Positions 20,099 to 44,627 of a stretch of DNA of 64,000 bases are shown one piece after another. Below the pieces are notes generated by a model. That model was not told the origin of the DNA, ran no database searches, and saw only the letters and a program-made list of their open reading frames with translations. Location: the NCBI RefSeq assembly GCF_013408535.1, contig NZ_JACBZA010000001.1:992001-1056000 (forward strand), given 5' to 3'. Positions within the stretch are counted from its first letter, which is position 1. Every line of letters begins with the position of its first letter. Position numbers and translations under genes: made by a program. The DNA is from Actinopolymorpha cephalotaxi. Lineage in GTDB: Bacteria; Actinomycetota; Actinomycetes; Propionibacteriales; Actinopolymorphaceae.

Positions 20099-20104
20099 TC
20101 TAGC

Positions 20105-20254: not shown

Positions 20255-22593
<2,339 letters not shown>

Positions 22594-25637: not shown

Positions 25638-25678
25638 CCGCGTGGCCGTGGGCGATGAGTAATTCGGTTGAAGCGGTC

Positions 25679-25942: not shown

Positions 25943-26123
25943 CCGTGGAACTCGCCATCCACCCCAGTGGGGTGCGCGTGCTCGCTCGCTTCCGGTAACT
26001 AGAAGGTGCCATGGCCTCGCGCATGGCTGTCCCATTGCTGTGCATCGTCGTGCCCACCCCGCAAGTTCAAAGCGTTCGTCAGTGATGTCATCTGCGCCGA
26101 AGACGTTGGCGCTACCTCGATCA

Positions 26124-26160
26124 GGCCACCTGCCGGACTGCATACGTCCGGCAGGTGGCC
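26124..26160. terminator. Strong 15-bp hairpin between cas3 and cse1
   Basis: GGCCACCTGCCGGAC (26124-26138) pairs perfectly with 26146-26160 around the 7-nt loop TGCATAC. This could end the cas3 transcript or a minus-strand one. There is no U-tract. Confidence 0.65.
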
Positions 26161-26210
26161 TGCACTGTCGCCCTCTTCATAGAGGGAGCACTTCGCCCTG
26201 CGGCTTGCCA

Positions 26211-26239
26211 CTGGGTCACTCCCGCACAAGCGGGAACCA
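26211..26239 (+). ncRNA. Solo CRISPR-repeat-like hairpin upstream of cse1
   Basis: TCCCGCACAAGCGGGA (26220-26235) has the same CCCGC/GCGGG stem with a 4-nt loop as the array repeats, and a similar overall length, but different flanks (GGTCAC before, ACCACG after). It lies about 130 bp before the cse1 start. It may be a degenerate repeat or a Cascade-binding regulatory RNA, or only a chance hairpin. Confidence 0.35.
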
Positions 26240-26368
26240 CGTTGCTGCGATTCGGACCGTACCACTATCGCATTACCCTACGGCTAGCCACCTTCAGAAA
26301 TTTTGGTATAGCCTCCCTCTCAGAGCGGCTTGCGGTTCTGAGTCGAGGATGACAACGGGGAGATGTCA

Positions 26369-28003
26369 ATGAGGGGACAGGCTTCGTTCGACCTGATTGA
26401 AGCGCCTTGGATCCGGGCGCTTCGACATGACGGTCGGCCGACCGAAGTGTCGATCCTGGAACTGTTCGGTTCGGCTGCGGAGTTGCGTTCGATCGTGGGT
26501 GAGGTACCCACCCAGACTTTCGCCACCGTCCGGCTGCTGCTGGCGATTCTGCATCGGGCGATCGATGGCCCGCAGACGACGGAGGACTGGCACGAGCTGT
26601 GGCGGTCCGGGGAGCTTCCGATGGAGGACATCACCGATTACCTCGATGGATTCCGGGACCGGTTCGATCTCCTGCACCCGCGGACGCCCTTCTATCAGGT
26701 CGCGGACCTTCACACGAGCAAGAACGAGTTCTTCGGCCTGGAGCGGTTGATCGCGGACGTGCCCAACGGTGAGCCGTTCTTCACCAGCCGAGTCAAGGAC
26801 GGGCTGACGCGGGTGTCGTTCGCGGAGGCTGCGCGGTGGGTGGTGCACTGTCAGGCGTTCGACCCGTCCGGCATCAAGTCTGGAGCGGTCGGGGACCCGA
26901 GGGTGAAGGGTGGCCGTGGCTACCCGATCGGCACTGGATGGTGTGGACGTCTCGGTGGGCTCTTCGCCGAAGGCCGCAACGTGCGGGAGACGCTGCTGCT
27001 GAATCTGAGCGGCGGGCTTTCCGAGGATGACCTGCCCGCTTGGGAACGCCCACCCTCCGACGCGCGGGAAGCCGACGTCGCCGGGCGCCCTGACGGGCAG
27101 GTGGATCTCTACACCTGGCAGAGCAGGCGCATCCGTCTGTTCGCTGATGCTGACGGTGTTTACGGCGTGCTGATCGCGAACGGCGACAAGCTGGATCCGC
27201 ACAACCTTCATGGGGTGGAGCCGTTGACGGCATGGCGGCGCAGCCCGGCGCAGGAGAAGGCCCGTAAGGAGCCGCTGGTCTACCTGCCGAGGACGCATGA
27301 CCCGGATCGCTCGTTGTGGCAGGGCCTGGGGGCTTTGCTGCCTAGCGCTACCGGTAGCCGCAGTAGCCGCGACGGCGCTACCGCGGTCGCCCCGGCGGTC
27401 CTGGAGTGGATCGCACAACTCGAGGTAGAAGGGCTCCTGGCTGGCGACTACGTAGTCCGTACCCGGGCGATCGGTATGGAGTACGGCAGTCAGGCCGCGA
27501 CGACAGCGGAGGTTTTCGACGACTCGTTGACGCTGGCGGCGGCCCTGCTGAAGGAGCAGGACACCGAGCTTGGCGCTTGTGCGGTCGGCGCGGTGGCCGA
27601 TGCTGAACGGGGTGTTCAGGCTCTTGGCAACCTGGCTTCGAACCTCGCGCAGGCTGCAGGTGACAGGCAACCTGGCGCGAGAGGCAAGGCGCACGAGCTT
27701 GGGTACTCGATGCTGGACGGCCCGTTCCGGTCGTGGCTGGCCGGCCTACGCACCGATACCGACATCCTGCAGGCCCGCCGGGAGTGGCAGCTGGCCGCCC
27801 GGCGAATCCTTGGCGACCTGGGACGCCAGATGGTCGCGGATGCCGGCCCGACCGCATGGGTGGGCCGTGAGGTCGATGACACACGCCCAGGCAAAGACAC
27901 GCGACACGTCAGCAGCCCGGAAGCCGACCTGTCGTTTCGCCGCCAGATTGCCAAAGCCTTCGAACTCGCCGGCAAACCAGACAGGGACGAGGTGCCAGCA
28001 TGA
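26369..28003 (+). CDS. cse1: Cascade large subunit Cse1 (CasA, Cas8e)
   Basis: About 544 residues. The N-terminal FDLIEAPWIRALRHDG, then VPTQTFATVRLLLAILHRAIDG and PRTPFYQVADL are the Cse1 hallmarks; length is in the family range. It recognises the PAM and recruits Cas3. ATG 26369 is favoured because ACGGGGAG lies 7 bp upstream; ATG 26363 is also possible. The stop overlaps the cse2 start (ATGA). It heads the seven-gene operon. Confidence 0.95.
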   Translation: MRGQASFDLIEAPWIRALRHDGRPTEVSILELFGSAAELRSIVGEVPTQTFATVRLLLAILHRAIDGPQTTEDWHELWRSGELPMEDITDYLDGFRDRFDLLHPRTPFYQVADLHTSKNEFFGLERLIADVPNGEPFFTSRVKDGLTRVSFAEAARWVVHCQAFDPSGIKSGAVGDPRVKGGRGYPIGTGWCGRLGGLFAEGRNVRETLLLNLSGGLSEDDLPAWERPPSDAREADVAGRPDGQVDLYTWQSRRIRLFADADGVYGVLIANGDKLDPHNLHGVEPLTAWRRSPAQEKARKEPLVYLPRTHDPDRSLWQGLGALLPSATGSRSSRDGATAVAPAVLEWIAQLEVEGLLAGDYVVRTRAIGMEYGSQAATTAEVFDDSLTLAAALLKEQDTELGACAVGAVADAERGVQALGNLASNLAQAAGDRQPGARGKAHELGYSMLDGPFRSWLAGLRTDTDILQARREWQLAARRILGDLGRQMVADAGPTAWVGREVDDTRPGKDTRHVSSPEADLSFRRQIAKAFELAGKPDRDEVPA

Positions 28004-28689
28004 CCACGACCACACAGGCACAAGCCGAGGAAGTCCCTCCGCAGCCGCCAAAACCGTCCCAGCCACGTGACCTGGCCAGGTTTGTGGCCAGCCGGGTAGC
28101 ACGTCTGCAACGCGAGTATTTGGACCACCGACCTGACGCTGCGGCCGCATTGGCGAAGCTCAGGCGCGGCGTGGGAAAGGAACCGGGGGCGGTTCCGGAG
28201 CTGTGGCAGCTCACCTTGGAGGGTGTTCCGCTGCCCGCCTGGTACACCGACGCCCCCACCGATTTCGAGAACGCCGCGTACGCCGCGCTGACCCTGTACG
28301 CGGTTCACCAGCAGTCCCGGCGTGAACCCATGCACCAGCCTGGGCAGGGACTTGGCGCGGCGGCACGAGTCCTGCGAGCACGTAAGAAGGCAGCAGGTGG
28401 CAGCGAGGACGCCGTGCGGCGGCGGTTCGAGGCCATCGGTACAGCCGTCAGTTTCAGCGAGGTCATGCACCACGGCCGCGCGCTGGTAACGCTCCTGCGG
28501 ACCCACAACGTGCCGTTGGACTACGGCCGGCTCGCACAGGACCTGGTGCTGCTGCAACGGCCAGGACGCGGGGACCAGGTGCGTCTTGCCTGGGGCCGCG
28601 ACTTCTACCAGGCCGGCAGCGAACCAACAGACCAAGACAACTCTGCGGCCACGGGGGCCGTAGCCGAAGACGGGGAGACCACCACATGA
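28000..28689 (+). CDS. cse2: Cascade small subunit Cse2 (CasB)
   Basis: A 229-residue, mostly helical protein. Recognisable parts are FVASRVARLQREYL, AYAALTLYAVHQQSR, GLGAAARVLRARKKA and the C-terminal DYGRLAQDLVLLQRPGRGDQVRLAWGRDFY that closes Cse2 proteins. Two copies line the crRNA-DNA filament in Cascade. The N-terminal Pro/Gln-rich stretch and C-terminal acidic tail are extensions. It overlaps cse1 and cas7 by 4 bp each. Confidence 0.95.
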   Translation: MTTTTQAQAEEVPPQPPKPSQPRDLARFVASRVARLQREYLDHRPDAAAALAKLRRGVGKEPGAVPELWQLTLEGVPLPAWYTDAPTDFENAAYAALTLYAVHQQSRREPMHQPGQGLGAAARVLRARKKAAGGSEDAVRRRFEAIGTAVSFSEVMHHGRALVTLLRTHNVPLDYGRLAQDLVLLQRPGRGDQVRLAWGRDFYQAGSEPTDQDNSAATGAVAEDGETTT

Positions 28690-29813
28690 GCCGAACGATC
28701 ATCGACATCCACGTCCTGCAGACGGTGCCGCCGTCGAACCTCAACCGAGACGACACCGGCAGCCCGAAGACTGCCGTCTACGGGGGAGTCCGCAGGTCCA
28801 GGGTGTCCAGTCAGGCATGGAAACACGCCGTCCGCGACAAGTTCGAGACCGAGCTCGACGACAGCGACCTCGGCATGCGGACCAGGCACGTGGTCGAGGT
28901 ATTGGACAGACGGATCCGTGAACGGGCACCCGAACTGGCCGACCGGGCCGAAGAGTTGGCGAAGGCCACCTTCAAGGCGGTCGGGATCAAGACGTCTGCG
29001 GCGAAGAAGGAGGAGCCTGAACAGTCCGGTTACCTCGTGTTCTTGAGCAGCCGCCAGTACGACAATCTCGCCGATGCCGCTGCCTCCGCTGCAAGAGCCG
29101 GCGGGAACCTGGACAAGGCGCTGAAGGAACGCGACGTGAAGGCGCTTGCCGATCGCGAGCACTCCATCGACGTCGCACTGTTCGGCCGAATGGTCGCCGA
29201 CGTGTCCGACATCAACGTCGAGGCCGCGGCTCAGGTCGCACATGCCATCAGCGTGCACGCGGTGGACAACGAGTACGACTACTTCACCGCGGTCGATGAC
29301 CACGATGAGGACGAGGAGCGGACCGGTGCGGGGATGATCGGCACCGTGGAGTTCAACTCCGCCACCCTCTACCGCTACGCGGCCGTGGACGTGGATCGCC
29401 TGGCGGAGACACTGGGCAGCCCTGAGGCGGCCCAACGCGCCGTGGAGGCCTTCGCCCGCACCTTCGTGACCAGTATGCCGACCGGGAAGATCACCACGTT
29501 CGGCAACCGCACCTTGCCCGACGCGGTCCTGGTCCGGTTGCGGGAGACGCAGCCGATCAGCTTCGTCGGCGCGTTCGAGGAGCCCGTCACGGCCGGCACG
29601 TCTGCTGGCCGTCTCAGCCAGGCCGCCATCCGGCTTGCCGAGTACGCGGTGGAAGTGGAGCGTAAGTACGACCAGCCCCCGGCTGCGTCGTGGGTCGTTC
29701 ACGTCGGTCGCGCCACCGAAGCGCTCGCCGGCCTTGGCCAGGACGGCACCCTCGACGAACTGGTGAAGGGCGTCGGGGACGAGGTTGCTCAGCGGTTGGC
29801 GGGGACAGCGTGA
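28686..29813 (+). CDS. cas7e: Cascade backbone subunit Cas7e (Cse4, CasC)
   Basis: A 375-residue RAMP protein. TIIDIHVLQTVPPSNLNRDDTGSPK and GGVRRSRVSSQAWKHAVR are the Cas7e N-terminal signature, and GMIGTVEFNSATLYRYAAVD and TSMPTGKITTFGNRTLPDAV are later conserved parts. Six copies form the filament on the crRNA. It overlaps cse2 (ATGA) and cas5e (GTGA), so expression is coupled. Confidence 0.96.
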   Translation: MSRTIIDIHVLQTVPPSNLNRDDTGSPKTAVYGGVRRSRVSSQAWKHAVRDKFETELDDSDLGMRTRHVVEVLDRRIRERAPELADRAEELAKATFKAVGIKTSAAKKEEPEQSGYLVFLSSRQYDNLADAAASAARAGGNLDKALKERDVKALADREHSIDVALFGRMVADVSDINVEAAAQVAHAISVHAVDNEYDYFTAVDDHDEDEERTGAGMIGTVEFNSATLYRYAAVDVDRLAETLGSPEAAQRAVEAFARTFVTSMPTGKITTFGNRTLPDAVLVRLRETQPISFVGAFEEPVTAGTSAGRLSQAAIRLAEYAVEVERKYDQPPAASWVVHVGRATEALAGLGQDGTLDELVKGVGDEVAQRLAGTA

Positions 29814-30517
29814 CGGGGCTCGTCCTTAGGCTCGCCGGACCCCTGCAGTCGTGGGGGTCCCGGAGCCGGTTCGTCCGGCGTGAGACCGAGCGGGCGCCCA
29901 CGAAGTCCGGTGTCATCGGGATCCTCGCCGCGGCGCGGGGGATGCGGCGGACCGATGACCTGACCGAGCTGCTCGGGCTCCGTTTCGCTGTCCGGGTCGA
30001 TCAGCCGGGCACGCTGATCCGCGACTTCCAGACTGCCCGCTCTCTTGACGGCAGTCGGGCGATGCCGTTGTCGTATCGGCACTACATGGCCGACGCGGTC
30101 TACGTCGCAGTGCTGGAGGGGGACTGTCAGCTCCTGGCCGGGCTGGACGCCGCGCTCCGCGCTCCGGTGTTCCCGCTCTACCTGGGCCGGCGCTCCTGCC
30201 CACCTGTCCAACCACTCAGCTTGGGCGTTCGCGACGGAAGCCTCACCGAGGTGATCAGTGCCGTGTCGTGGCAGGCGTCGCAGTGGTATCGACGTCGGCG
30301 TCGAGAGCCACAAGTGAGCCTGGAGGTGATTCGCGATGCACATCCAGACGAGCAGGGGGATGTCGTCCGTGATGAGCCGGAGAGCTTCGATCCACAACGT
30401 CGGGAGTACGGGTGGCGGCCCGTCGTACGGGAAACCGTGTCACTCACCAACCCTGACATCTCCGATTCCGTTGCCGAACAGTTCGGGCACGACCCGATGG
30501 CCCTGTTGGGAGGATGA
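29810..30517 (+). CDS. cas5e: Cascade subunit Cas5e (CasD)
   Basis: A 235-residue RAMP protein starting TGLVLRLAGPLQSWGSRSRF, the Cas5e signature, then ERAPTKSGVIGILAAARGMRR. It caps the 5' handle of the crRNA. The GTG at 29810 overlaps the cas7e stop; a longer frame to 29690 lies inside cas7e. A glycine-rich loop and the LYLGRRSCPP segment fit the family. Confidence 0.94.
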   Translation: MTGLVLRLAGPLQSWGSRSRFVRRETERAPTKSGVIGILAAARGMRRTDDLTELLGLRFAVRVDQPGTLIRDFQTARSLDGSRAMPLSYRHYMADAVYVAVLEGDCQLLAGLDAALRAPVFPLYLGRRSCPPVQPLSLGVRDGSLTEVISAVSWQASQWYRRRRREPQVSLEVIRDAHPDEQGDVVRDEPESFDPQRREYGWRPVVRETVSLTNPDISDSVAEQFGHDPMALLGG

Positions 30518-30520
30518 GCG

Positions 30521-31249
30521 GTGTTCCTCACCCGCTTCCAGATCAATCCGCAACGTCGCGACGCGCGTCGGCTGCTGACTTCACCGCAGGCGATGCACGC
30601 CGCGGTACTGAACGGCTTCCCGTCGCGCCAGGACCACGCCGACGGCAGGGTCTTGTGGCGGCTCGACCGCTCCGGCGCCCACGAGGTCCTGCTGTACATC
30701 TCGAGCCCAACAGCGCCCGACCTGACGCACTTGATGGAGCAGGCTGGATGGCCCACCATTCAGACCTGGCAGACCCGCCCGTACGACAAGTTCCTGGCCA
30801 CACTCGAACGGGGCCAGCACTGGGCCTTCCGCCTCACCGCCAACCCGGCCCGCAGCGGAACCAAACCAAGGCCCGACACCACGAAGGAGAAGCCTGCTGA
30901 GCAGCCCGACCCTAAGGCAGGTGCAGACCAGTCGGAGGGGAAGAATCGGTCGTCCCAGCGGTTCGGACACGTGACCGTCAGCCAACAGCACGACTGGCTG
31001 CTGCAACGTGCCGAACGAAACGGATTCCGTGTCCTGCTCGGAACCATGGATGAACCGGACGTGATCATTCGCGAACGGTCCACCCTCAACTTCCAGCGCA
31101 ACGGCTCGCGGGTGACGATCCGCCAAGCGACCTACGACGGCCGGCTGGAGGTCGTCGACCCGGACGCGCTACGCCGCGTCATGATGTCCGGCCTAGGGCA
31201 CGGCAAGGCCTACGGGTGTGGTCTGCTAACCGTGGCGCCGACCGAATGA
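30521..31249 (+). CDS. cas6e: crRNA-processing endonuclease Cas6e (CasE)
   Basis: A 242-residue double-RRM protein. H26 in TSPQAMHAAVLNGFP matches the catalytic histidine position of Cas6e, and GLGHGKAYGCGLLTV is the C-terminal glycine-rich loop. It cuts each repeat at the base of its palindromic hairpin and stays bound to the 3' end. GTG 30521 follows GGGAGG by 8 bp. Residues about 105-140 form a charged, low-complexity insert (KPRPDTTKEK and on). Confidence 0.95.
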   Translation: MFLTRFQINPQRRDARRLLTSPQAMHAAVLNGFPSRQDHADGRVLWRLDRSGAHEVLLYISSPTAPDLTHLMEQAGWPTIQTWQTRPYDKFLATLERGQHWAFRLTANPARSGTKPRPDTTKEKPAEQPDPKAGADQSEGKNRSSQRFGHVTVSQQHDWLLQRAERNGFRVLLGTMDEPDVIIRERSTLNFQRNGSRVTIRQATYDGRLEVVDPDALRRVMMSGLGHGKAYGCGLLTVAPTE

Positions 31250-32220
31250 CAGGCCCGCCCGGAACGCCGCCACCGCGGCTGCCTGAACTCGTCCGGGCGC
31301 AGGACAGGCTCTCGTTCATCTACGTCGAACGTTGCATCGTCCACCGTGACAGCAACGCGATCACCGCAACCGACGAACGAGGAACGGTGCACATACCGGC
31401 GGCCTCCCTCGGTGCCCTGCTGATCGGGCCAGGCACCAGAGTCACCCACCAGGCCATGATGCTCCTGGCGGAGAGCGCTTCGACCGCTGTGTGGGTCGGT
31501 GAACGCGGAGTCCGCTACTACGCCCACGGTCGATCGCTCGCGAACTCCACAAGGTTGCTCGAAGCTCAAGCGGCGGCGGTCTCTCACCGAGACCGCCGCC
31601 TGGCCGTCGCCCGGGCCATGTACGCCCTGCGGTTCCCCGACGAGGAAGACGTCGCCGGGCTGACGATGCAGCAGTTGCGTGGTCGAGAAGGCGTCCGCGT
31701 CCGCCGGCTGTACCGCGAGCACGCCGAGCGGACCGGCGTCAGCTGGGAAAGCCGTCGTTACGACATGGACAACTTCGCGTCCGGAGATGTCGTCAACCAG
31801 GCCCTGTCCGCGGCGCATACCAGCCTCTACGGGGTGTGCCACGCCGTGATCGTGGCGCTCGGTTGTGCTCCCGGCCTCGGGTTCGTCCACACCGGCCATG
31901 AACGCTCGTTCGTCTACGACGTCGCCGACCTGTACAAGGCGGAGATGACCATTCCGATCGCGTTCGACATTGCAGCATCAGTGCCCGCCGAAGTCGCGGG
32001 CGAGACTCGTCGAGCCGTGCGTGGGCGGCTCCACGATGGTCTCTTCCTTCAGCGATGCGTGCGCGATATCCGGCGCCTGCTGTTGTCGGAGGAGGATCCG
32101 GTGACCAACGGGCAGGAACACCTCGAGACAAGCATCGTCAGACTGTGGGACGAGAAGGTAGCGCCGATCGAGGGCGGTACAAACTACGCGTACGAATCCG
32201 ACGACGAGGTCGACTTCTGA
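31246..32220 (+). CDS. cas1: Spacer integrase Cas1e
   Basis: A 324-residue Cas1 of the I-E type: RLSFIYVERCIVHRDSNAIT, GPGTRVTHQAMMLLAES, RREGVRVRRLYREHAERTG-like segment (GREGVRVRRLYR), and the metal site region GFVHTGHERSFVYDVADLYK with the conserved His and Asp. It joins new spacers at the leader end with Cas2. The ATG at 31246 overlaps the cas6e stop (ATGA). The C-terminal tail is acidic (YAYESDDEVDF). Confidence 0.96.
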   Translation: MTGPPGTPPPRLPELVRAQDRLSFIYVERCIVHRDSNAITATDERGTVHIPAASLGALLIGPGTRVTHQAMMLLAESASTAVWVGERGVRYYAHGRSLANSTRLLEAQAAAVSHRDRRLAVARAMYALRFPDEEDVAGLTMQQLRGREGVRVRRLYREHAERTGVSWESRRYDMDNFASGDVVNQALSAAHTSLYGVCHAVIVALGCAPGLGFVHTGHERSFVYDVADLYKAEMTIPIAFDIAASVPAEVAGETRRAVRGRLHDGLFLQRCVRDIRRLLLSEEDPVTNGQEHLETSIVRLWDEKVAPIEGGTNYAYESDDEVDF

Positions 32221-32615
32221 TGACCGTCATCGTCCTGACAGCCTGCCCTGCAGGCCTTCGCGGCCACCTCACGCGGTGGCTTCTTGAGATCTCCGCCGGC
32301 GTCTTCGTCGGCAACGTGACGTCCAGAGTCCGTGACCTCATGTGGGCACGCGTCATCGAGCTATCCGGGCAAGGTCGAGCGCTGATGGTGTACAGCACCG
32401 ACGGCGAGCAACGGCTCCAGTTCAAGGTCCACGAACATCATTGGAAACCCGTCGACTACGACGGTGTCATGCTCATCCGCCGCCCGCCCAGTCACGACTT
32501 GGCGTCACCGTCGAGTGGCCGGACCGGCTGGAGCAAGGCAGTTAAACGGAAGCGCTTCGGAAAGCAGGCAGCCCGTCGCACCAGCACACCCCCATCTCCA
32601 GGGAAGGGGCCCTGA
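32220..32615 (+). CDS. cas2: Cas2e with basic C-terminal extension
   Basis: A 131-residue protein. MTVIVLTACPAGLRGHLTRWL and SAGVFVGNVTSRVRDLMW are the Cas2e hallmarks, and HEHHWKPVDYDGVMLIRRP ends the core near residue 95. The last 35 residues (WSKAVKRKRFGKQAARR and on) are strongly basic and beyond the usual core. It overlaps the cas1 stop by one base (TGATG). Its own stop is the first part of the array 2 leader. Confidence 0.94.
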   Translation: MTVIVLTACPAGLRGHLTRWLLEISAGVFVGNVTSRVRDLMWARVIELSGQGRALMVYSTDGEQRLQFKVHEHHWKPVDYDGVMLIRRPPSHDLASPSSGRTGWSKAVKRKRFGKQAARRTSTPPSPGKGP

Positions 32616-32665
32616 AAGTGATTGAGAATCGCCACGAGCCATAGCAAACCCGCAGGTCAAGAAGT
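32615..32665 (+). promoter_or_regulatory. Leader of CRISPR array 2
   Basis: AAAGTGATTGAGAA (32615-32628) and GCAGGTCAAGAAGT (32652-32665) match array 1 leader motifs, with the same 51-bp distance to the first repeat. The leader begins at the cas2 stop codon, so the array may be read through from the cas operon. Confidence 0.78.
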
Positions 32666-34343
32666 GTGCTCCCCGCGTACGCGGGGGTGATCCGTCGTTC
32701 GCGCCCAGTTCGATCAGGAAACACGAGTGCTCCCCGCGTACGCGGGGGTGATCCGATCGCCGCCATGAAGGAAACCCTGTCCACCCTGTGCTCCCCGCGT
32801 ACGCGGGGGTGATCCGCCGAAGAGTCGGACGTAGTCCTGGCGCCGGTTGTGCTCCCCGCGTACGCGGGGGTGATCCGAACGACTGCCAGGCCCGGCACGA
32901 GATCGAAGCGTGCTCCCCGCGTACGCGGGGGTGATCCGTACCGCGGCAAGGGAAGCACCACCGGAAACGCGTGCTCCCCGCGTACGCGGGGGTGATCCCT
33001 CCAACCGGAACACCGCGGCGTTAGAGAGGTTGTGCTCCCCGCGTACGCGGGGGTGATCCGTTCAGGCACGCCGACCAGGTGTCGCCGCTGACGTGCTCCC
33101 CGCGTACGCGGGGGTGATCCGTTGAACCGCGCCCATCCCGCCCGCCCCGGGAGGTGCTCCCCGCGTACGCGGGGGTGATCCGCTCCCGCGTAACCCCGTC
33201 ACCCCGCAGAGCAGGTGCTCCCCGCGTACGCGGGGGTGATCCGTCGTAGTCCTGGATAGCGGTCATGGAGAGCCCGTGCTCCCCGCGTACGCGGGGGTGA
33301 TCCGGCTGGCGCTGTCCTGCTCCGACAGCGCGGCCTGTGCTCCCCGCGTACGCGGGGGTGATCCGATCACGGGGCATCACGTGCTGCGCCACTGCTAGTG
33401 CTCCCCGCGTACGCGGGGGTGATCCGAAGGCCTGCGGGTCGGTGCCGCCGTTGCCGAGCGTGCTCCCCGCGTACGCGGGGGTGATCCGGACCGCGACATG
33501 GTGGACACCCTGGAGACGGGGTGCTCCCCGCGTACGCGGGGGTGATCCGTGCCATGCGGGTGCCCTCCTGGGGCTGGGAGAGTGCTCCCCGCGTACGCGG
33601 GGGTGATCCTGACAGCGCCCCGAGTGCGCCCAACGCGCTGACGTGCTCCCCGCGTACGCGGGGGTGATCCGCGCCGGCGGTGCGCACAGTGACGTTCGGG
33701 AACGTGCTCCCCGCGTACGCGGGGGTGATCCGGTCTTGTTCTTCTCGAACAGCAGGATCAGGCCGTGCTCCCCGCGTACGCGGGGGTGATCCGAACTGGG
33801 ACCGCCTGTCCGACGCAGTGCGCCGGTGCTCCCCGCGTACGCGGGGGTGATCCGGCCGATCACCTCGGCCGCGCGGGCGGTCACTCGTGCTCCCCGCGTA
33901 CGCGGGGGTGATCCGCGCCGAGCCTCTCGGCGTCAGGCGCCTCGACCGTGCTCCCCGCGTACGCGGGGGTGATCCGCCGCAGAGGCCGCCGAGGTCGCCA
34001 AAGCGCACGTGCTCCCCGCGTACGCGGGGGTGATCCGGATCCGCCGGTCGCACCGGCGCCCGTGGTCGCGTGCTCCCCGCGTACGCGGGGGTGATCCGGC
34101 CTGCTACCGGTGGAACCCTTACGACCTCGGGTGCTCCCCGCGTACGCGGGGGTGATCCGTTGTTGCGTTCCCGCCGACGCTCGAGCTCTGCGTGCTCCCC
34201 GCGTACGCGGGGGTGATCCGGACCCGATGTGGGGGCAGGAAGTCGCCAAGCCGTGCTCCCCGCGTACGCGGGGGTGATCCGTCGTGGTCGTCCCACACGT
34301 AGGCCAGCGGCGCCGTGCTCCCCGCGTATGTGGGGGTGATCCG
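32666..34343 (+). CRISPR. Type I-E CRISPR array 2: 28 repeats, 27 spacers
   Basis: It uses the same 29-bp repeat as array 1 (GTGCTCCCCGCG to GGGGTGATCCG) with 32-33-bp spacers. Repeats are nearly perfect: the one at 32971 ends in C, the one at 33582 in T, and the last at 34315 reads GCGTATGTGGGGG. The single degenerate last repeat marks the right end as the trailer. The array has less decay than array 1. Confidence 0.98.
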
Positions 34344-35339: not shown

Positions 35340-36386
35340 TCAAGCGGCGGCCGTCACGGCCGGGTCGTGGTTGATGTTGGCGTCGGCTTGCAGGGCACGG
35401 TAGACGACGTCGGAGAGTCGTCGTTTGAGGGCACGGATCGACTCTGTCTTGGTATCGCCTTGAGTCCGTCGTCGTTGGAGAAACTCTCGTGCCTGTGGGT
35501 GGTAGTGGGCCTGGGTGATTGCGATGCGGTGCAGAGCGGCATTGAGTTGTCGGTTGCCGATGCGGGATAGCCGATGCCGTTCGTGGTTGCCGGACCAGAC
35601 CGGGACGGGGGCGGTCCCGTTGTGGCGTGCGAAGGCGTGCCGGGAGCGGAACCGTGTGACGTCGGCGGTCTCTCCGATGATCTTTGCGGCGGTCAGGATC
35701 GCGCACCCGGGCAGCTCAAGCAGGTTCGGCGCCAGGCGGGATACCAGCGGTTCGAGTTCACGGTCGAGCGCACGGATCTGCGCGGTGAGGTCGCGGCAGC
35801 GGTCCACGAGGTCTCGGGCAAGTCGGGCCACCAGCCCATCGATGCCGATCAGGCGAGCGGTGACGCCGGCAAGGTTCTTCGGCCTCCACAAAGTGCGGGG
35901 CGGGAGCTGCCAGGACGGGTCGATCTCGTGGAGGTGCCAGCGAAGGCGGTTGATCACACGGGTCCGTTCGGCGACCATGTCGTCGCGGTGGCTTAACAGC
36001 AGCCTGACTTCGCGTGCAGGCCCGTCCAGACGCGCGGTCGGCAGGTTCGGCTCGCGTAGGGCCGCTCGCGCAACCGCCAATGCGTCGATCGGGTCGGACT
36101 TACCGTAGCTGCGGGCGCTGTCGCGGACATGAGCCATCAGCTTGGGAGGGACGCGCACGATGCGTTCCCCTGCACCGAGCAGGTCTCGTTCGAGGCGTCG
36201 GGACAGGTGGCGACAGTCCTCGACCGCCCACATCCTCTCGTCGCCGAACTGCTCTGCCCACGTCAGCATGGCCAGGTGATCGTCGGTGGTTGTTCCAGTC
36301 GTGCGTTGGCCGAGCTTACGACCGAGGTCGTCGACCGCGACGACGGTGTGGCTGCGCTTGTGAGCATCGATTCCGAGTACGACCAT
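35340..36386 (-). CDS. IS110-family transposase
   Basis: A 348-residue DEDD transposase. The RuvC-like half has GIDAHKRSHTVV (Asp), WAVEDC (Glu) and SYGKSDPIDALAVARAA (Asp-Asp); the C-terminal half has LELPGCAILTAAKIIGE and FARHNGTAPVPVWSG, including the helix-hairpin-helix region of Transposase_20. Length is normal and the frame is intact. IS110 elements use a bridge RNA to pick targets and have no classic inverted repeats. An 8-bp repeat GCTCCTAT flanks it at 35331 and 36468. Confidence 0.92.
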   Translation of the reverse strand: MVVLGIDAHKRSHTVVAVDDLGRKLGQRTTGTTTDDHLAMLTWAEQFGDERMWAVEDCRHLSRRLERDLLGAGERIVRVPPKLMAHVRDSARSYGKSDPIDALAVARAALREPNLPTARLDGPAREVRLLLSHRDDMVAERTRVINRLRWHLHEIDPSWQLPPRTLWRPKNLAGVTARLIGIDGLVARLARDLVDRCRDLTAQIRALDRELEPLVSRLAPNLLELPGCAILTAAKIIGETADVTRFRSRHAFARHNGTAPVPVWSGNHERHRLSRIGNRQLNAALHRIAITQAHYHPQAREFLQRRRTQGDTKTESIRALKRRLSDVVYRALQADANINHDPAVTAAA

Positions 36387-36918
36387 GGAACCTGTCTCCC
36401 GTTCTCTTCATTCGGTGATGGGTGACAGGACCGGCCGGTGGGCACAGCTCAGTTGGGGCGACGCCACGCTCCTATCAAGCCACGCCGGCCGGTCCAGCAG
36501 GACCCGGACGGCCGCACAACTGGACATGGCCACCAACGGCACAGAGTGGTGGAGCGAGCCAGCCGAGCCCTGCACGTCACCTTGACACTGAGCAGAGTGG
36601 TGTATCGCTGACGCCTTGGACGCGCAGATGATGACTGTTCGAGCTCTCTTGGAGGACCGACGACGGCTCGCAAATCCTGACTCAGGGGACACGGCCCGGG
36701 TGAAGGAGTAGGTGGATGCGGGCTTGCGTGCCGGGCACGGTGTCGTCGACACAAGGCCTCCACAACAGCGTGTCCCTCTGAGTAGGACCCGCGGTAGCCG
36801 GCCCCATGCGAGCGAGAGTCTTCCACGTCCACACCACCCGCAGACCCGGTGCGTGCCGGTGCCTCGGTTTGATTGTTTGACTGTTTCAGGCGCTCTGTCC
36901 GTTCTAGGTTTGGGAGTT
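36387..36918. other. Structured region between the IS110 transposase and the caspase gene
   Basis: No gene is supported. GGACCGGCCGG (36428-36438) and its complement CCGGCCGGTCC (36485-36495) could form an 11-bp stem with a 46-nt apical part. In the IS110 group the bridge RNA is encoded on the 5' side of the transposase, so this is a candidate site for it on the minus strand. The rest (36600-36918) should hold the caspase gene promoter; no clear -35/-10 pair was seen. Confidence 0.35.
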
Positions 36919-39900
36919 ATGGGGGACCGGCGGTTGGTGTTGGTGGTGGGTTCGCAGTGCGCGGCGTTGGGTCGGCCGCTGTCGTTCTTGCCGGACGCCC
37001 CGGGTCCTGTGGAGCCGGCCGGCTTGCCGGCTCGGCAGCGGCTGGTCCTGGGGTTACTTGATCTGCTGGTGGACGGGCCGGGTGGGTGTGCGCCGGTGTC
37101 CGTGAAGTGTGAGTCGGCTCCCGGGCTGCTGCTGAACCCGACGAAGGCGGTCGCGGATGCGGCGTTGTTGGCGGCTTTGCAGCAGGCCGATGAGCTGCAG
37201 GCAGTGCTGGTGGTGCATTTCGTGGGGCACGGCAGCCGGCACCAGGACGATCCCGCGGCGCCGGCACGGCATCTGCTGCATGTTTGGGACACGGTCGCCA
37301 AGCCGGTGGACACCGAGCCGGAGAGCAACGGCTGGGACCCCTATGAACTGATCCGGCGACGGCGCAACCATCTACCTAACATCGTGGGTCTGGTACTGCT
37401 GGTGGACGCGTGCTACGCGTCGTGGGCCAAGCAGCAGGTGGACGCCTGGAGCGGGGTGCAAGGCGGGCTGCTGTCCGCGTGGCTGGGTTCTTCGGGGGAC
37501 CAGCCGGCGTGGGATGGGTGTTTCACCAAGACGCTGGTCCAGGTGCTCGGGCAGGGCCTGGACGTGGCCGAGCACCCCCGCAGGGCGCTAGTGCCGGACC
37601 TGCTGGCCAGCGACCTGGAGCCGGTGCTGACGGGCTGCCAGGACCAGGCGCCGCGGCTGGGTGGGTTCGAAAGCCACAATCCGGTGCTGTTCGTAGCCCG
37701 CAACCGGCGGGCTAGCCAGCTGGGGGCCGCGCTGGGTGTGGATGCGGGCACCGAGACGCTGCTGCTGCGGCTGACAGAGAGCTACGTGACCTTCGCGGTG
37801 GACATGGTCACCGATTCAATCCGAGCCCATCGGGTCACTGCGGTGGTCGGGGGTCCAGGGGCGGGGAAGTCGACGCTGGCGGCGGCGCTGCGGCACCCGC
37901 CGGCCAGCGTGGAGAAGGTGCCGCTGGGACTGGTGCATGCCGTCGGGTTCATGGCGGTGGCATCCTCCGTGCCGGAGCTGGCCGCCACGTTGCGGGGGCA
38001 GCTGCAGAAGCTGGCCTGGTTCCCTGAAGTCGCGCGCCGGTACTGGCAGGCTAACGCCGCACGGTGGGATGACCTGGATCCGTGGCAGCGGCTCACCGGG
38101 CCGCTCAGCCTGTACCCCGATCCGGTCCGGCTGCTCGTGGACGGGTTGGACCAGCTCGAGGGCCAGCCCGGCTATCCCGAGGTTCTGCACGCGCTCCAGG
38201 CACTCGTCGACGACCCGGCGCTGGGCCACGTGAAGCTGGTGCTGGTCGGTCGTAGTGTGCCTGCCCTGGGCGGCGTCGACGCCGTCGTCGACATGCCGGT
38301 CCTCGATGTGAACACCGCGACCCGCTACCTGCACGCGCGCGGCGTGCTGGATCCCGGGACCGTGGAGTGGCTGGTGCAAGTGGCGGCCGGGAACTGGCTG
38401 GTGCTTGATCTTGCTGCTACCACCGTCAGCAGCGTCGCGGGAGGCGCGGGCTTCCCGGAGGACCAGGCGGCTCTCTACACCCAGCTGCTGGACCAGATCC
38501 GGACCCGACACGGTGGTGTGGTTGACGTGGTCATGGCGTTGCTCGCGGCCGCGGGGACCGGGCCTGTGCTCCCGTTCGACCTGCTGCACGCCACCCTCGT
38601 CGTCCTGGGCCAGCCGCTGACCCGCGCCGACCTGTACCTGCTGCTCGGCGACGTCGACCTGCACCGGCTGCTGGACCGCTCCAACACCGGGCGGGCCGAC
38701 GAACATCTCGGACTGTTCCACCAGACCCTGGGCGACTACCTCACCACCCACCCGCGCCCCGGGACCCCGGCGGCGCCCGCGGTGCATGCCGCGATCATCC
38801 ACGCCCTCGACCAACAGGCCCCGGCAACCAAGCACACCCCCGGCAGCTACCGCGATGACCCGCTGCTCACCTACGCATTCGATGTCGGCCCCCGCCATCG
38901 CCACGAAGCCGGACGCGACGACAGCCTGGTCGCTGACCTGACCCGCGATGACCCTGTCCCGCGCGTAAACCTCACTCGCTGGACCACCTGGGCATCCGTC
39001 ATCCTTGACGCGCTCGGCTGCGACCACCCCGACACCCTCACCACCCGCAGCATCATCGCCTACTGGACCGCCCAGACTGGCGATCCAAGCGAGGCGCTGC
39101 GCCTGTTACGGCAACTGCTGCCCGACCAGGAACGGGTCCTCGGCCGCGACCACCCCGACACCCTCACCACCCGCAACAACATCGCCCATTCGACCGGCGA
39201 GACCGGCGACCCAAGCGAGGCGCTGCGCCTGTACCGAGAACTGCTGCCCGACCGGGAACGGGTCCTCGGCCGCGACCACCCCGACACCCTCACCACCCGC
39301 AATAACATCGCCAGCTGGACCGGGCAGACGGGCGACCCAAGCGAGGCGCTGCGCCTGTTTCGGCAACTGCTGCCCGACCGGGAACGGGTCCTCGGCCGCG
39401 ACCACCCCGACACCCTCGCCACCCGCGGCAACGTCGCCAGCTGGACCGGCGAGGCCGGTGACCCGAGCGAGGCGCTGCGCCTGTTTCGGCAACTGCTGCC
39501 CGACCGGGAACGGGTCCTCGGCCGCGACCACCCCGACACCCTCACCACCCGCAATAACATCGCCAGCTGGACCGGGCAGACGGGCGACCCAAGCGAGGCG
39601 CTGCGCCTGTTTCGGCAACTGCTGCCCGACCGGGAACGGGTCCTCGGCCGCGACCACCCTGACACCCTCGCCACCCGCGGCAACGTCGCCAGCTGGACCG
39701 GCGAGGCCGGTGACCCGAGCGAGGCGCTGCGCCTGTTTCGGCAACTGCTGCCCGACCGGGAACGGGTCCTCGGCCGCGACCACCCCGACACCCTCATCAC
39801 CCGCGGCAACGTCGCCAGCTGGACCGGCGAGGCCGGTGACCCGAGCGAGGCGCTGCGCCTGTTTCGGCAACTGCTGCCCGACCGGGAACGGGTCCTCGGC

Positions 39901-40344
39901 CGCGACCACCCTGACACCCTCGCCACCCGCGGCAACGTCGCCAGCTGGACCGGCGAGGCCGGTGACCCGAGCGAGGCGCTGCGCCTGTTTCGGCAACTGC
40001 TGCCCGACCGGGAACGGGTCCTCGGCCGCGACCACCCCGACACCCTCATCACCCGCGGCAACGTCGCCAGCTGGACCGGCGAGGCCGGTGACCCGAGCGA
40101 GGCGCTGCGCCTGTTACGGCAACTGCTGCCCGACCACGAACAGGTCCTCGGCCGCGACCACCCCGACACCCTCATCACCCGCGGCAACATCGCTCACTGG
40201 ACCGGCGTGACAGGCCAACCGGACGAGGCGCTGCGCCTGTTACGGCAACTGCTGCCCGACCGGGAACGGGTCCTCGGCCGCGACCACCCCGACACCCTCA
40301 CCACCCGCAACAGCATCGCCTACCTGACCGGCACGATCGAATGA
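36919..40344 (+). CDS. Caspase-like / STAND NTPase / TPR protein
   Basis: An 1141-residue protein in three parts. Residues 1-260 look like a caspase-fold peptidase with His104 in VVHFVGHGSRH and Cys165 in LLVDACYAS. Residues about 290-560 are a P-loop NTPase with Walker A GGPGAGKST (311-319) and Walker B LLVDGLDQLE (405-414), of the STAND/NACHT type. Residues 703-1141 are eleven 42-residue TPR units, each starting HPDTL. ATG 36919 is chosen; the frame is open upstream without coding character. Such peptidase-STAND-repeat proteins act as invader sensors or in cell suicide in multicellular bacteria. Function here is inferred. It points at the Cys-rich/TM pair at 42507-43471. Confidence 0.85.
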   Translation: MGDRRLVLVVGSQCAALGRPLSFLPDAPGPVEPAGLPARQRLVLGLLDLLVDGPGGCAPVSVKCESAPGLLLNPTKAVADAALLAALQQADELQAVLVVHFVGHGSRHQDDPAAPARHLLHVWDTVAKPVDTEPESNGWDPYELIRRRRNHLPNIVGLVLLVDACYASWAKQQVDAWSGVQGGLLSAWLGSSGDQPAWDGCFTKTLVQVLGQGLDVAEHPRRALVPDLLASDLEPVLTGCQDQAPRLGGFESHNPVLFVARNRRASQLGAALGVDAGTETLLLRLTESYVTFAVDMVTDSIRAHRVTAVVGGPGAGKSTLAAALRHPPASVEKVPLGLVHAVGFMAVASSVPELAATLRGQLQKLAWFPEVARRYWQANAARWDDLDPWQRLTGPLSLYPDPVRLLVDGLDQLEGQPGYPEVLHALQALVDDPALGHVKLVLVGRSVPALGGVDAVVDMPVLDVNTATRYLHARGVLDPGTVEWLVQVAAGNWLVLDLAATTVSSVAGGAGFPEDQAALYTQLLDQIRTRHGGVVDVVMALLAAAGTGPVLPFDLLHATLVVLGQPLTRADLYLLLGDVDLHRLLDRSNTGRADEHLGLFHQTLGDYLTTHPRPGTPAAPAVHAAIIHALDQQAPATKHTPGSYRDDPLLTYAFDVGPRHRHEAGRDDSLVADLTRDDPVPRVNLTRWTTWASVILDALGCDHPDTLTTRSIIAYWTAQTGDPSEALRLLRQLLPDQERVLGRDHPDTLTTRNNIAHSTGETGDPSEALRLYRELLPDRERVLGRDHPDTLTTRNNIASWTGQTGDPSEALRLFRQLLPDRERVLGRDHPDTLATRGNVASWTGEAGDPSEALRLFRQLLPDRERVLGRDHPDTLTTRNNIASWTGQTGDPSEALRLFRQLLPDRERVLGRDHPDTLATRGNVASWTGEAGDPSEALRLFRQLLPDRERVLGRDHPDTLITRGNVASWTGEAGDPSEALRLFRQLLPDRERVLGRDHPDTLATRGNVASWTGEAGDPSEALRLFRQLLPDRERVLGRDHPDTLITRGNVASWTGEAGDPSEALRLLRQLLPDHEQVLGRDHPDTLITRGNIAHWTGVTGQPDEALRLLRQLLPDRERVLGRDHPDTLTTRNSIAYLTGTIE
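39025..40330 (+). repeat. Eleven tandem 126-bp TPR-coding repeats
   Basis: The HPDTL codons recur at exactly 126-bp steps from 39025 to 40285. Units 3-6 alternate two types (NNIASWTGQTG and GNVASWTGEAG), giving a 252-bp higher-order repeat, and units 6-9 repeat the GNVASWTGEAG type with only Ala/Ile changes. DNA identity is very high, including silent sites, so the repeats were copied recently or are kept alike by gene conversion. Confidence 0.92.
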
Positions 40345-40424
40345 AATCTCAGCCGAGGCTCGAGGAGGGGGCTACCGACCGACCTCAGAGACCTACCTGT
40401 CTCGGCCTGCTCCTTACCTGCCAA

Positions 40425-40877
40425 CTAGGGCGTGTCTCCCAGTTCGCGTAGCCAGGTGATGATCGCGCCGAGCACGACGCCGCCGCGGTAGGTCAGGGCG
40501 AGCTTGTCGTACCTGGTGGCCAAGCCTCGCCACTGCTTCAGGACGTTGAAAGAACGCTCGATGACGTTGCGCCCCTTGTACGCCTCGGCGTCGAACGCCG
40601 GTGGTCGGCCACCCTTGGAGCCCTTGCGTTTGCGGTTTCCTGTCTGGTCGGACGGTTCGGCGATCACCGCGGTGATGCCACGGGAGCGCAGCAGCGCCCG
40701 GTTGCCGCGGGAGGAGTACGCCTTGTCCGCCAGGACCGCGTCGGGTCGGGTCCGCGGGCGCCCTCGACCCTGCCTGGGTACGCGAATCGCCTTGAGCAGG
40801 TTCGCGAACATCGGCGAGTCGTTGGCCTGGCCGGGCCCGAGCAGCAGCACGAGCGGGCGGCCCTTGCCGTCGCACAA
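40425..40877 (-). CDS. IS5-family transposase OrfB, copy 2
   Basis: The C-terminal DDE half with VLADKAYSSRG and NVIERSFNVLKQW. Protein differences from copy 1 are minimal (for example PPAFDAEAY for PPTFDAEAY). The stop TAG at 40425-40427 is again supplied by the target CTAG. The frame extends upstream through EPADHAIGRSRGG to overlap OrfA. Confidence 0.87.
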   Translation of the reverse strand: MCDGKGRPLVLLLGPGQANDSPMFANLLKAIRVPRQGRGRPRTRPDAVLADKAYSSRGNRALLRSRGITAVIAEPSDQTGNRKRKGSKGGRPPAFDAEAYKGRNVIERSFNVLKQWRGLATRYDKLALTYRGGVVLGAIITWLRELGDTP

Positions 40878-41378
40878 GTGGTGAATCTTCGTGCTCAGGC
40901 CTCCGCGGGAGCGGCCGATGGCGTGGTCAGCCGGCTCGATCCGCAGATTCGTGTGATTCGACAGCTCCCCCTGTGCCAGTGGCGGGCCTGGTCAGGTTGG
41001 TGCCGTGCTGGTGCGCGCGGTTGATCGTCGAGTCCACGCTGACCGACCAGTCGATGTCACCGGCCGCGTCGGCGTGCGCGAGCAGCGCGGTGTGGATCCG
41101 GTCCCAAGTGCCGTCGCCGCAGAACCGGCGATGCCGCTTCCAGACCGTCTGCCACGGCCCGAACCGCTCCGGCAGGTCACGCCAGGCGATGCCGGTCCGG
41201 AACCGGTACACGACACCCTCCACGATCGTGCGGTGCTCCCGAAACCTGTTGCCCCGCTTGCCGTCCGAGGACGGCATCAAGGGCTCGATCAGCTCCCACT
41301 CGGCATCGGACAGCACGGCTGAACGCGACATCGGTCAACCATCGCAGCCCGGAAGACCGACATTCAGGAGACACGCCC
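40428..41378 (-). mobile_element. IS5-family (IS427-type) insertion sequence, copy 2
   Basis: A 951-bp near-copy of the element at 13924. It is flanked by TA repeats at 40426-40427 and 41379-41380 within CTAG. The right junction, GCCC-TAG-G, produced a new CCTAGG into which IS481 copy 2 inserted. The target CTAG was the stop codon of the membrane protein gene now ending at 42507. Confidence 0.92.
40927..41331 (-). CDS. IS5-family transposase OrfA, copy 2
   Basis: A 134-residue N-terminal transposase half with the DNA-binding region and first catalytic Asp (VSVDSTINRAH). It differs from copy 1 in a few residues (AEWELIEPLMP, REHRTIVEGVV). It keeps the same frame break and the same G5 run, so the split is a property of the element and not a random mutation. 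Confidence 0.88.
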   Translation of the reverse strand: MSRSAVLSDAEWELIEPLMPSSDGKRGNRFREHRTIVEGVVYRFRTGIAWRDLPERFGPWQTVWKRHRRFCGDGTWDRIHTALLAHADAAGDIDWSVSVDSTINRAHQHGTNLTRPATGTGGAVESHESADRAG

Positions 41379-42394
41379 TAGGTGTTGCGGGTCATGACGT
41401 TGGTGACGGTCTGCCGGAGGCGTGAGGCGGGTGGTTGGTCGCCGGCGGCGGTGTGGGCTCGATGGTAGTTGTAGTGGATGTTCCACACCTGGATCGCCTG
41501 TGCGCGTTGGGTTTCGCTGGTCCACACCCGGGCGTAGAGGAGTTCTTCGGCGAGGGTGCGCTGGTATCTCTCGACTTTGCCGTTGTGGCGTGGTGTGTAG
41601 GGGCGGGTGCGCTGGTGACGTGAGGCGAATGCTGTCGCGGTCCGCACGAACGCCCCGGCCCGGTAGTTCGCACCGTTGTCTGTGACCAGGCGAGTGATCC
41701 GGACGATGCCGTGGTCGGCGAAGAACGCACGGGCCCGGTGGAAGAAGCCGATCGACGTCTTCGCGGTCTCATCGGTCAGGTGTTCGGTGTAGGCCAGTCG
41801 GGAGAACCCGTCCACCGCCGAGTGCAGGTAGACGTAGCCAGCCTTGGCTGCGCCCTTCTTCTTGGCCTTGGCGCGCTGGGCGGCTCGGTCAGCGTCGCTG
41901 CCGCGTCCGTGGGCCCGCCAGCCGCCGCCGTCGGGGATCCGGCCGACCTTCTTCACGTCCAGGTGCACCATGTGCCCCGGATAGCGGGCGGTGATCCGCT
42001 CCGGCCGCCGGTTCGACGCGCCAGTGGGGTCCAGGTCGCGGCGCCGGTTGAGACCCAGGCGGGCCAGCCACCGGCCCACGGTGGCGACAGAGACCCGGTG
42101 GCCGCGGTGGGCGAGCTCGGCGGCGATCTTGCGGGCGGACCACTTGTGCTCCCGGCGCCAGGTCTCGATCAGCTCCACCACCCCATCCGGGGTCTGGGAC
42201 GGGGAGGAATGCGGCGCGGAGGACCGGTCGAGCAGACCGGCGTCGCCGCTGGCCCGGTAGCGGTTCACCCACTTCGACAGACACTGCCGCGACACGCCGG
42301 CCTCGGCGGCCACGTGGGCGATCGGGCGGGTCTGGCAGCGGGTGACAAGACGCAGCCGGCCGGCAGCAGTCAACGGGGCGCTAGCGTGGGACAC
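41378..42394 (-). CDS. IS481-family transposase, copy 2
   Basis: 338 residues, identical to copy 1 except the last residue: AAC-ACC-TAG gives Thr then stop, because the CCTAGG target supplies different bases from TCTAGC. The DDE residues (HLDVKK, VTDNGANY, KVERYQR) are intact. The identity of the two copies indicates very recent activity. Confidence 0.93.
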   Translation of the reverse strand: MSHASAPLTAAGRLRLVTRCQTRPIAHVAAEAGVSRQCLSKWVNRYRASGDAGLLDRSSAPHSSPSQTPDGVVELIETWRREHKWSARKIAAELAHRGHRVSVATVGRWLARLGLNRRRDLDPTGASNRRPERITARYPGHMVHLDVKKVGRIPDGGGWRAHGRGSDADRAAQRAKAKKKGAAKAGYVYLHSAVDGFSRLAYTEHLTDETAKTSIGFFHRARAFFADHGIVRITRLVTDNGANYRAGAFVRTATAFASRHQRTRPYTPRHNGKVERYQRTLAEELLYARVWTSETQRAQAIQVWNIHYNYHRAHTAAGDQPPASRLRQTVTNVMTRNT

Positions 42395-42505
42395 GAGGGG
42401 TAGATCCCTTTCGGAGGACGGTTGGTCGCACTTCCATCCTGCCGACCGGCGATCTACCCCTCCCTCACACCCCGACCACCGTCAACAACCTCATGAGCCA
42501 CAACA
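41383..42505 (-). mobile_element. IS481-family insertion sequence, copy 2 (nested)
   Basis: 1123 bp, the same size and ends as copy 1. It is flanked by the 6-bp duplication CCTAGG (41377-41382 and 42506-42511). The left duplication overlaps the last two bases of IS5 copy 2, so IS481 arrived later, into the CTAG remade by the IS5 insertion. Confidence 0.93.
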
Positions 42506-42506
42506 C

Positions 42507-43106
42507 CTAGGGGCAAGTACTGACCTTTAATTTGGGTGACAGCATCTTTACGGCCACGGTATCTCCCGGAATCGCAGCGACGGTCCGGTTTCCGAAGGCG
42601 AGGCACATGATCTTGTAGCTAGCCGTCCCGGAGGACGGGGCGAACCACGTGATACCAATCGCGACGGCAAGCAGCACAACCGCCGCCAGCGCGGCGGCGA
42701 CAGCCTGGCTAAGGTGTTTTAGGACGTTGGCCGCCGCTTTGCCACGTGCCTCGGCAAGCCTGGTCGCAAGGCCAACGATAGGCTGCGGATCGATCGTGTT
42801 GAGTCGGTCGGGATCGCCGTAAGCGCTCGCGTAGGCACGGTAGGTGCCGAAGAGTAAGCAGGCAAGCGCGAGTGTGATCAGCGCCGCCACGGCGATCTTG
42901 AACGGAGTCGCGAGGTCGCTTGTCGACTCGGGACCCTTGATGATCAACACTGTTCCGATCAGCCCCGTGAAGGCGCTCAGCGCACCGAGCCACTTCTCCG
43001 CGCGACCGCGCACGATTTGAAGGCGGTCGTCGTCGTTGTGTTCAAGAACGTCGTAGGCGTCGAGGTCCTCGCGGCTGGGCAAGTCCGTGCCCGCGGGTTG
43101 GTTCAT
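42507..43106 (-). CDS. Three-TM membrane protein of unknown function
   Basis: A 199-residue protein. The cytoplasmic start (DAYDVLEHNDDDRLQIVRGR) is followed by helices near LSAFTGLIGTVLIIKG, FKIAVAALITLALACLLFGT and AVAAALAAVVLLAVAIGITWF, then a 35-residue outer tail ending VSTCP. ATG 43106 overlaps the stop of the Cys-rich gene (ATGA), so the two are coupled. The TAG stop is in the CTAG used by IS5 and IS481 and still works. I do not recognise a family. A membrane effector or anchor for the neighbouring conflict gene is only a guess. Confidence 0.75.
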   Translation of the reverse strand: MNQPAGTDLPSREDLDAYDVLEHNDDDRLQIVRGRAEKWLGALSAFTGLIGTVLIIKGPESTSDLATPFKIAVAALITLALACLLFGTYRAYASAYGDPDRLNTIDPQPIVGLATRLAEARGKAAANVLKHLSQAVAAALAAVVLLAVAIGITWFAPSSGTASYKIMCLAFGNRTVAAIPGDTVAVKMLSPKLKVSTCP

Positions 43107-43471
43107 GACGTGACCCTTGAAACGGTATAGAGCCAGAACCGTCCGCAGCCGGAGCCGCCGGCGTTGCCGTGGTCGGAGCCGCAGCGGCAGGTCACCGGAA
43201 TCTGGATCTCCATGGTCGGGGCAGCGTGCCTGAGCTTTTCGCCCCCGCCCTGTCCCTCTGGAGGCATTGGTCGATCCCGGAAATGTCCTTGGACCTCCGC
43301 TGCACATGTCGGGCACGGGCCCTTGGCGTAGTAGGTGCGCAGATCTTCAGCGGTGTAGCCCCAGTCGCTCCACCGCGTTCGGTCTAGGGTCGACTCAGGC
43401 AAGGGCTCCTGCGCGTATCGCACCGAGGTGTCGTGTCCAGGCGTGGTGTTCCCGGGTTCTTGGATGCTCAC
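43103..43471 (-). CDS. Small cysteine-rich (zinc-ribbon-like) protein
   Basis: A 122-residue protein. Cysteines are arranged as CPTC near residue 53, CRCG near 95 and a further Cys in GGSGCGRFWLY, which suggests a zinc site. The first 50 residues are acidic and polar (WSDWGYTAEDLRTYYA). It has no signal or helix for the membrane. It is co-translated with the membrane protein downstream (ATGA overlap). No named family is recognised. It may be a soluble adaptor or regulator of that membrane protein. Confidence 0.7.
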   Translation of the reverse strand: MSIQEPGNTTPGHDTSVRYAQEPLPESTLDRTRWSDWGYTAEDLRTYYAKGPCPTCAAEVQGHFRDRPMPPEGQGGGEKLRHAAPTMEIQIPVTCRCGSDHGNAGGSGCGRFWLYTVSRVTS

Positions 43472-44549: not shown

Positions 44550-44597
44550 GCGGTGGAGCGGGTGACGGGAATCGAACCCGCATGACCAGCTTGGAAG
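44550..44597. repeat. tRNA-Gly 3'-half repeat, copy 3 (within intact tRNA)
   Basis: This is the 48-bp segment shared with 17836 and 18763. It runs from just past the encoded CCA to the anticodon arm of the intact tRNA, the classic crossover position for tRNA-targeting integrases. Confidence 0.85.
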
Positions 44598-44627
44598 GCT
44601 GGAGCTCTGCCATTGAGCTACACCCGC
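44554..44627 (-). tRNA. tRNA-Gly (anticodon TCC)
   Basis: A 74-nt cloverleaf read on the minus strand: acceptor GCGGGTG pairs with CACCCGC, the D arm is GCTC/GAGC, the anticodon loop is CTTCCAA (TCC), the T arm is GCGGG-TTCGATT-CCCGT, and CCA is encoded. Its 3' half is repeated twice to the left, making it the likely integration site of the island. Confidence 0.95.

Follow-up and report, generated by a model that had tools for sequence, protein, structure and literature searches.

Near-identical C-terminal repeats are a well-known feature of fungal NLRs. The high-internal-conservation NLRs of Podospora anserina (Dyrka et al., 2014, PMC4986451) combine an N-terminal effector, a STAND switch and near-identical C-terminal repeats, and the HNWD proteins of het-d, het-e and het-r carry repeats of a comparable kind (Chevanne et al., 2010, PMC2873952). 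Between fungal isolates the TPR units number from 2 to >14, and rearrangements of the repeats were directly observed (PMC4986451, PMC2873952). In 42PR proteins the concave groove is lined by the helices A (PMC5642895), and the selected sites of the Podospora TPR NLRs map to these groove-lining helices (PMC4986451). The 42-residue, nearly identical TPR-like repeats of one P. anserina 42PR protein are represented in the structures 4y6c/4y6w, a repeat fragment without effector domains. For bacteria, actinobacterial conflict proteins with a caspase, a STAND module and superstructure-forming repeats were described by Kaur et al. (2020, PMC7159879), and alpha/beta-hydrolase neighbours of caspases are known from VMAP systems (PMC7159879). 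Two further types are relevant here: the EACC1-caspase two-gene system, in which an EACC1 gene is adjacent on the 5' side, and the FxSxx-COOH TPR proteins (NF040586), which are STAND-type and have 42-residue TPR units. High-identity WD40 repeats have been mentioned for bacteria (PMC12222747); our literature search yielded no report of bacterial NLRs whose TPR units are near-identical.

The gene compared with these systems lies in a stretch of 64,000 nucleotides from Actinopolymorpha cephalotaxi, which is called the window in the following. Its parts are:

36919..40344, + strand: gene for a caspase-like/STAND/TPR protein of 1141 aa from the ATG at 36919 (alignments with homologues start about there and GGGAG stands just upstream)
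36919..37790, + strand: caspase-like peptidase domain, residues 1-290, with His104 (GHG) and Cys165 (DAC), assigned by motif conservation and a weak NF047832 match
37791..39009, + strand: STAND (NACHT-like) NTPase and helical region, assigned by motifs, profile matches of homologues and Foldseek
39010..40269, + strand: ten full 126-bp (42-aa) TPR_10 (42PR) units, assigned by TRF, reading frame, TPR_10 profile, AlphaFold and VIA-align
40270..40344, + strand: partial eleventh unit of 24 aa plus the stop codon, by in-frame reading

The open frame itself reaches further 5', to a GTG at 36712 (1210 aa). Residues ~300-460 contain an intact P-loop (GGPGAGKST, aa 311-319) and an intact Walker B motif (RLLVDGLD, aa 404-411), and the TPR_10 region comprises residues 698-1141; H104, C165, the P-loop and D408 are invariant in four homologues. 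As in EACC1-associated caspase-like peptidases, a His/Cys dyad is present in GHG and DAC/DTC motifs. The profile of these peptidases (NF047832, caspase_w_EACC1) matches the window protein with E=8.6e-4 and 18.9 bits and the homologues with E=2.6e-16, 4.5e-12 and 3.8e-9 (36-60 bits), all of them below the curated cut-off of 140. By these scores the domain likely belongs to the same superfamily as these peptidases and not to the NF047832 subfamily. Unlike in the two-gene system, no EACC1 gene was recognised 5' of the gene, where an integrase remnant and an IS110-like element are found instead. The NACHT score of the window protein (19.3) is under the cut-off of 26.7; homologues clear the cut-offs for NACHT, NPHP3_N or AAA_16, one of them those for both NACHT and NPHP3_N. 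The model of the caspase-STAND part has a mean pLDDT of 62, with the caspase region poorly modelled. Its Foldseek matches comprise AAA+/STAND folds including MalT, and no caspase fold is among them. For the TPR solenoid the AlphaFold pLDDT is about 85-95, the TPR_10 profile matches the repeats with E=2e-112, and VIA-align against KLC1 (kinesin light chain) and the Podospora structure 4y6c gives Z of about 21-22. By sequence, the repeats match 4y6c/4y6w with E=4e-20 to 1e-19 (VIA-align Z 21). PADLOC returned no meaningful match.

The predicted layout is thus that of NLR-like STAND proteins, i.e., an effector, a STAND NTPase and C-terminal superstructure-forming repeats, as in the actinobacterial caspase conflict systems, and this architecture supports the proposal of an earlier note that the repeats form the sensor part of the protein. 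With the fungal TPR/ANK/WD40 sets the window protein shares the TPR_10 repeat (PF13374), variation on the concave-side helix and repeat duplications; it differs from them in that it is bacterial, has a caspase-like effector and is known from one genome. The presence of an effector likewise distinguishes it from 4y6c/4y6w. We regard the array as the bacterial counterpart of the fungal high-internal-conservation NLR repeats. An identity as FxSxx-COOH TPR protein was considered and rejected. The whole protein scores 307.7 against the NF040586 cut-off of 300, yet the match is confined to the repeats, and the 697-aa core has none.

Tandem Repeats Finder describes a single array at 39013-40332 with a period of 126, 10.5 copies, 91% matches and zero indels. 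The array of 126-bp units that the earlier note had reported is therefore real, but its count of eleven has to be read as ten full units and a partial one, and “near-identical” applies to the seven close units 3-9 and not to the outer units 1, 2 and 10, which diverge from the others by 12-19 bases. Unit 3 has exactly the DNA sequence of unit 5, and unit 6 that of unit 8; unit 4 is one silent base apart from 6/8. Units 3-8 are 88-100% identical across 252 aa and come under the definition of high internal conservation used for fungi (>85% over at least 100 aa, PMC4986451).

In this G+C-rich genome, with a GC3 of 0.87 in the genes of the window, silent sites might look alike by composition alone, and a codon-usage simulation served as control (400 simulations with fixed amino acids and codons drawn from window usage). 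At sites with the same residue, units share the same codon in a proportion of 0.925, as compared to an expected 0.486 +/- 0.022 with a simulated maximum of 0.567. This excludes codon bias as the cause, and the likeness at silent sites, correctly seen in the earlier note, therefore reflects recent copying. Purifying selection is also excluded as its cause, since it acts on the protein and does not keep silent sites.

Identity between shifted copies is highest at a lag of 252 (0.927; lag 126: 0.911), and two blocks account for the higher-order units of 252 bp and the block duplications already proposed:

39239..39796, + strand: duplication block A at a lag of 252 bp; 39239-39544 is copied at 39491-39796 (306 bp, 1 mismatch at 39408)
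39592..40115, + strand: duplication block B at a lag of 252 bp; 39592-39863 is copied at 39844-40115 (272 bp, 0 mismatches)

Units 4/6 are 2-3 bases apart from unit 7, which marks an older one-unit copy. Reversal of the three copy events would lead back to about 5.5 units, which is near the count of the homologue from Frankia. No TPR_10 units at E <= 1e-5 were found in any other gene of the genome; the exchange is therefore intragenic, and conversion between genes is excluded as the source of the likeness. Altogether, exchange within the array, in the form of recent block duplication and homogenisation, is well supported. The silent-site identity, the two blocks and the clustering of units by protein (see below) support the suggestion that unequal exchange or conversion took place recently.

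The differences that remain between units are concentrated. At unit positions 11, 14, 15, 18 and 22 the mean entropy in the window array is 1.16 bits, against 0.22 elsewhere, and these positions form one face of helix A (unit positions about 8-23 of the model helix). A helical-moment test gave p=0.028 for the window array; when ten high-identity arrays were summed, p was 0.0001, at a nearly equal angle. This variable face is presumed to be the ligand face, by analogy with the groove-lining helices of the fungal proteins. The earlier note had expected repeats that face changing ligands, and the distribution of differences on one helix face agrees with this; the claim is weakened by a similar, weaker bias in non-homogenised arrays and by a pN/pS between window units of 0.87, which is not above 1. 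In view of these two observations diversifying selection may or may not be at work, and ligand-driven selection on the units is no more than plausible.

Searches for relatives revealed an accessory distribution of the gene. No orthologue was detected in the five sister species of the genus, and none in the genus, the family (8 genomes), plasmids, phages and viral contigs; when the order and the class were added to the 5 congeners and 8 family genomes, with about 390 genomes each, only two relatives came up. A contig scan with the single protein as query found no relative, and an alignment-based profile scan named the same two and added a third. The three homologues, from Frankia sp. QA3, Kribbella sp. 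VKM Ac-2569 and Amycolatopsis antarctica, share the caspase-like/STAND/TPR architecture at a core identity of 33-34%. Within the genus Kribbella only the already known homologue was found (1 of 38 genomes). The earlier note had considered that copy number may vary between strains; between homologues it does vary, the window protein having 10.5 units, the Frankia homologue 5, that of Kribbella 8 and that of Amycolatopsis about 4 degenerate ones. Adjoining the homologue gene there is in all three cases a gene with the motif GHSLGS, whose Frankia copy shows weak alpha/beta-hydrolase matches. In this respect the homologues resemble the caspase/alpha/beta-hydrolase pairs of VMAP systems, whereas in the window no convincing hydrolase-like partner or remnant was found (no match better than E=0.04). 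Without this neighbour the system may be incomplete at the window locus. The hydrolase-like gene of Frankia (L004 3697-3806) contains an 18-bp tandem repeat of about six copies near its 3' end.

All 14 units of the window and Frankia proteins match best inside their own protein, a sign of concerted evolution in the two arrays. Whether such clustering holds for TPR arrays generally was examined with a contrast set of 45 STAND TPR arrays, for which 40 more regions encoding TPR arrays of 42-residue units were taken from Frankia. Their mean internal nucleotide identity has a median of 0.59; 36 arrays are below 0.70 and nine above it, with four of these beyond 0.85. The window array has the second-highest value. 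Among low-identity arrays with an N-terminal identity of 60% or more, just 12% of the units find their best match in the same protein, and unit numbers differ by <=1 in 45 of the 55 pairs. In high-identity arrays the best match of most units lies in the same protein, and homologues at 60-63% N-terminal identity have 5 vs 16 and 9 vs 10 units. Single unit counts are approximate, since they vary with the threshold set for the profile and several genomes are draft assemblies; the genome with the 16-unit array (G427) is one contig. Hence, homogenised STAND TPR arrays are the minority in this set, and the unit number of the others is steadier. The 16-unit Frankia array (L070; mean identity 0.87) and its homologue with 5 units (L065 in G558; 63% N-terminal identity) represent a good pair for the study of changes in repeat number.

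The gene is located on an IS-rich, mobile-looking island which is absent or different in the sister species. Neighbouring features are:

35340..36386, - strand: IS110-like transposase directly upstream of the gene, by sequence recognition
36604..36712, + strand: remnant of an integrase (tyrosine recombinase) gene, from its C-terminal end, matching sister species G003 at 89% across 109 bp
40422-41381, - strand: IS5-like element directly downstream, by sequence recognition
41378-42510, - strand: IS481-like element downstream, by sequence recognition
44554..44627, - strand: tRNA-Gly near the island boundary

In G003 the integrase segment ends a longer frame with MGHDSMRAALIYQHAT..ADALDAQMMTVRALLED, identified as integrase by sequence recognition. 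In sister G004 the tRNA/tig side is joined to window position ~11.5 kb, so that a stretch of roughly 33 kb is missing, and in G005 it is joined to ~16.9 kb with different cargo in between. This outlines a hypervariable island at ~11500-44550 upstream of tRNA-Gly/tRNA-Pro and tig, of which G003 has shared fragments only. Beside the array gene lies a complete-looking type I-E CRISPR-Cas locus (20254-34343) with cas3 at 22764-25637 followed by cse1, cse2, cas7, cas5, cas6e and cas1; the cas genes are flanked by CRISPR arrays at about 20254-22457 and 32666-34343, which have the same repeat. Second copies of the IS5-like (13918-14877, 99.1%) and IS481-like (18971-20103, 99.8%) elements are present, and the two near-identical IS pairs thereby flank the CRISPR-Cas locus together with the caspase-STAND gene; recombination between the copies could delete or move the block. 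Two small genes on the minus strand (42510-43471) beside the IS elements, one with likely transmembrane helices and one with a CPTC motif, had no significant Pfam or NCBIfam match and are possibly another conflict module.

We consider it probable that the array serves as the C-terminal sensor solenoid in an NLR-like conflict protein of bacteria, lengthened and homogenised by intragenic exchange which reassorts groove variants. As judged from the architecture, a ligand would bind in the concave groove lined by the helices A, the STAND domain would then exchange its nucleotide and oligomerise, and the caspase-like domain would be activated and harm or kill the infected cell as a defence. The array has been lengthened and homogenised one or two units at a time, as the two blocks and the older one-unit copy show, by recombination within the gene or by slippage of replication from one direct repeat to another. 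Thereby the scaffold would be kept uniform while the variants at the five helix-A positions, where the pattern is seen and selection is assumed, are reassorted.

The strongest competing explanation, in our view clearly the less probable one, is a neutral recent expansion by few slippage or recombination events without any selection for diversity, in which the groove bias would reflect weaker constraint on solvent-facing sites. The pN/pS of about 0.9 is compatible with it, non-homogenised arrays are also most variable on the helix-A face, and about three events suffice for units 3-9; however, the contrast between this face and the remaining positions is 5.3-fold here and about 1.6-fold in the lowest-identity arrays tested, and high internal identity in nine of the 45 STAND arrays argues against a one-off event. 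That the published sequence has the units in a wrong number or order is very improbable: assembly from short reads is known to go wrong in arrays of this kind (PMC12222747), but the genome forms one contig of 6.86 Mb, distinct unit variants stand in a consistent order and the frame stays open over the whole length. The least probable explanation of all is that purifying selection keeps the solenoid uniform. 42PR proteins with near-identical units do fold well (4y6c), yet the silent sites refute it as sole cause, the units of the Kribbella homologue are only 52-71% aa-identical in an unchanged architecture, and most STAND TPR arrays have a nucleotide identity of about 0.6.

The pattern as such is well known in fungi; added here are a bacterial example with controls and the distinction of steady from homogenised STAND arrays. 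It is a bolder and rather doubtful proposition that in filamentous actinobacteria the exchange of repeats within a gene is a dedicated means of diversifying NLR sensors, as a prokaryotic equivalent of the heterokaryon-incompatibility NLRs of fungi. Lines of one species would then differ in the number and order of their units, which would determine the ligand specificity. Should the array still be unstable at present, it would represent an immune-type receptor whose specificity could shift by recombination in culture, which could be tested faster than in fungi. In the contrast set actinobacterial STAND TPR sensors fall into two classes, steady ones with orthologous units and homogenised ones with concerted evolution, and this division provides a simple sequence test for receptors that may be in an arms race.
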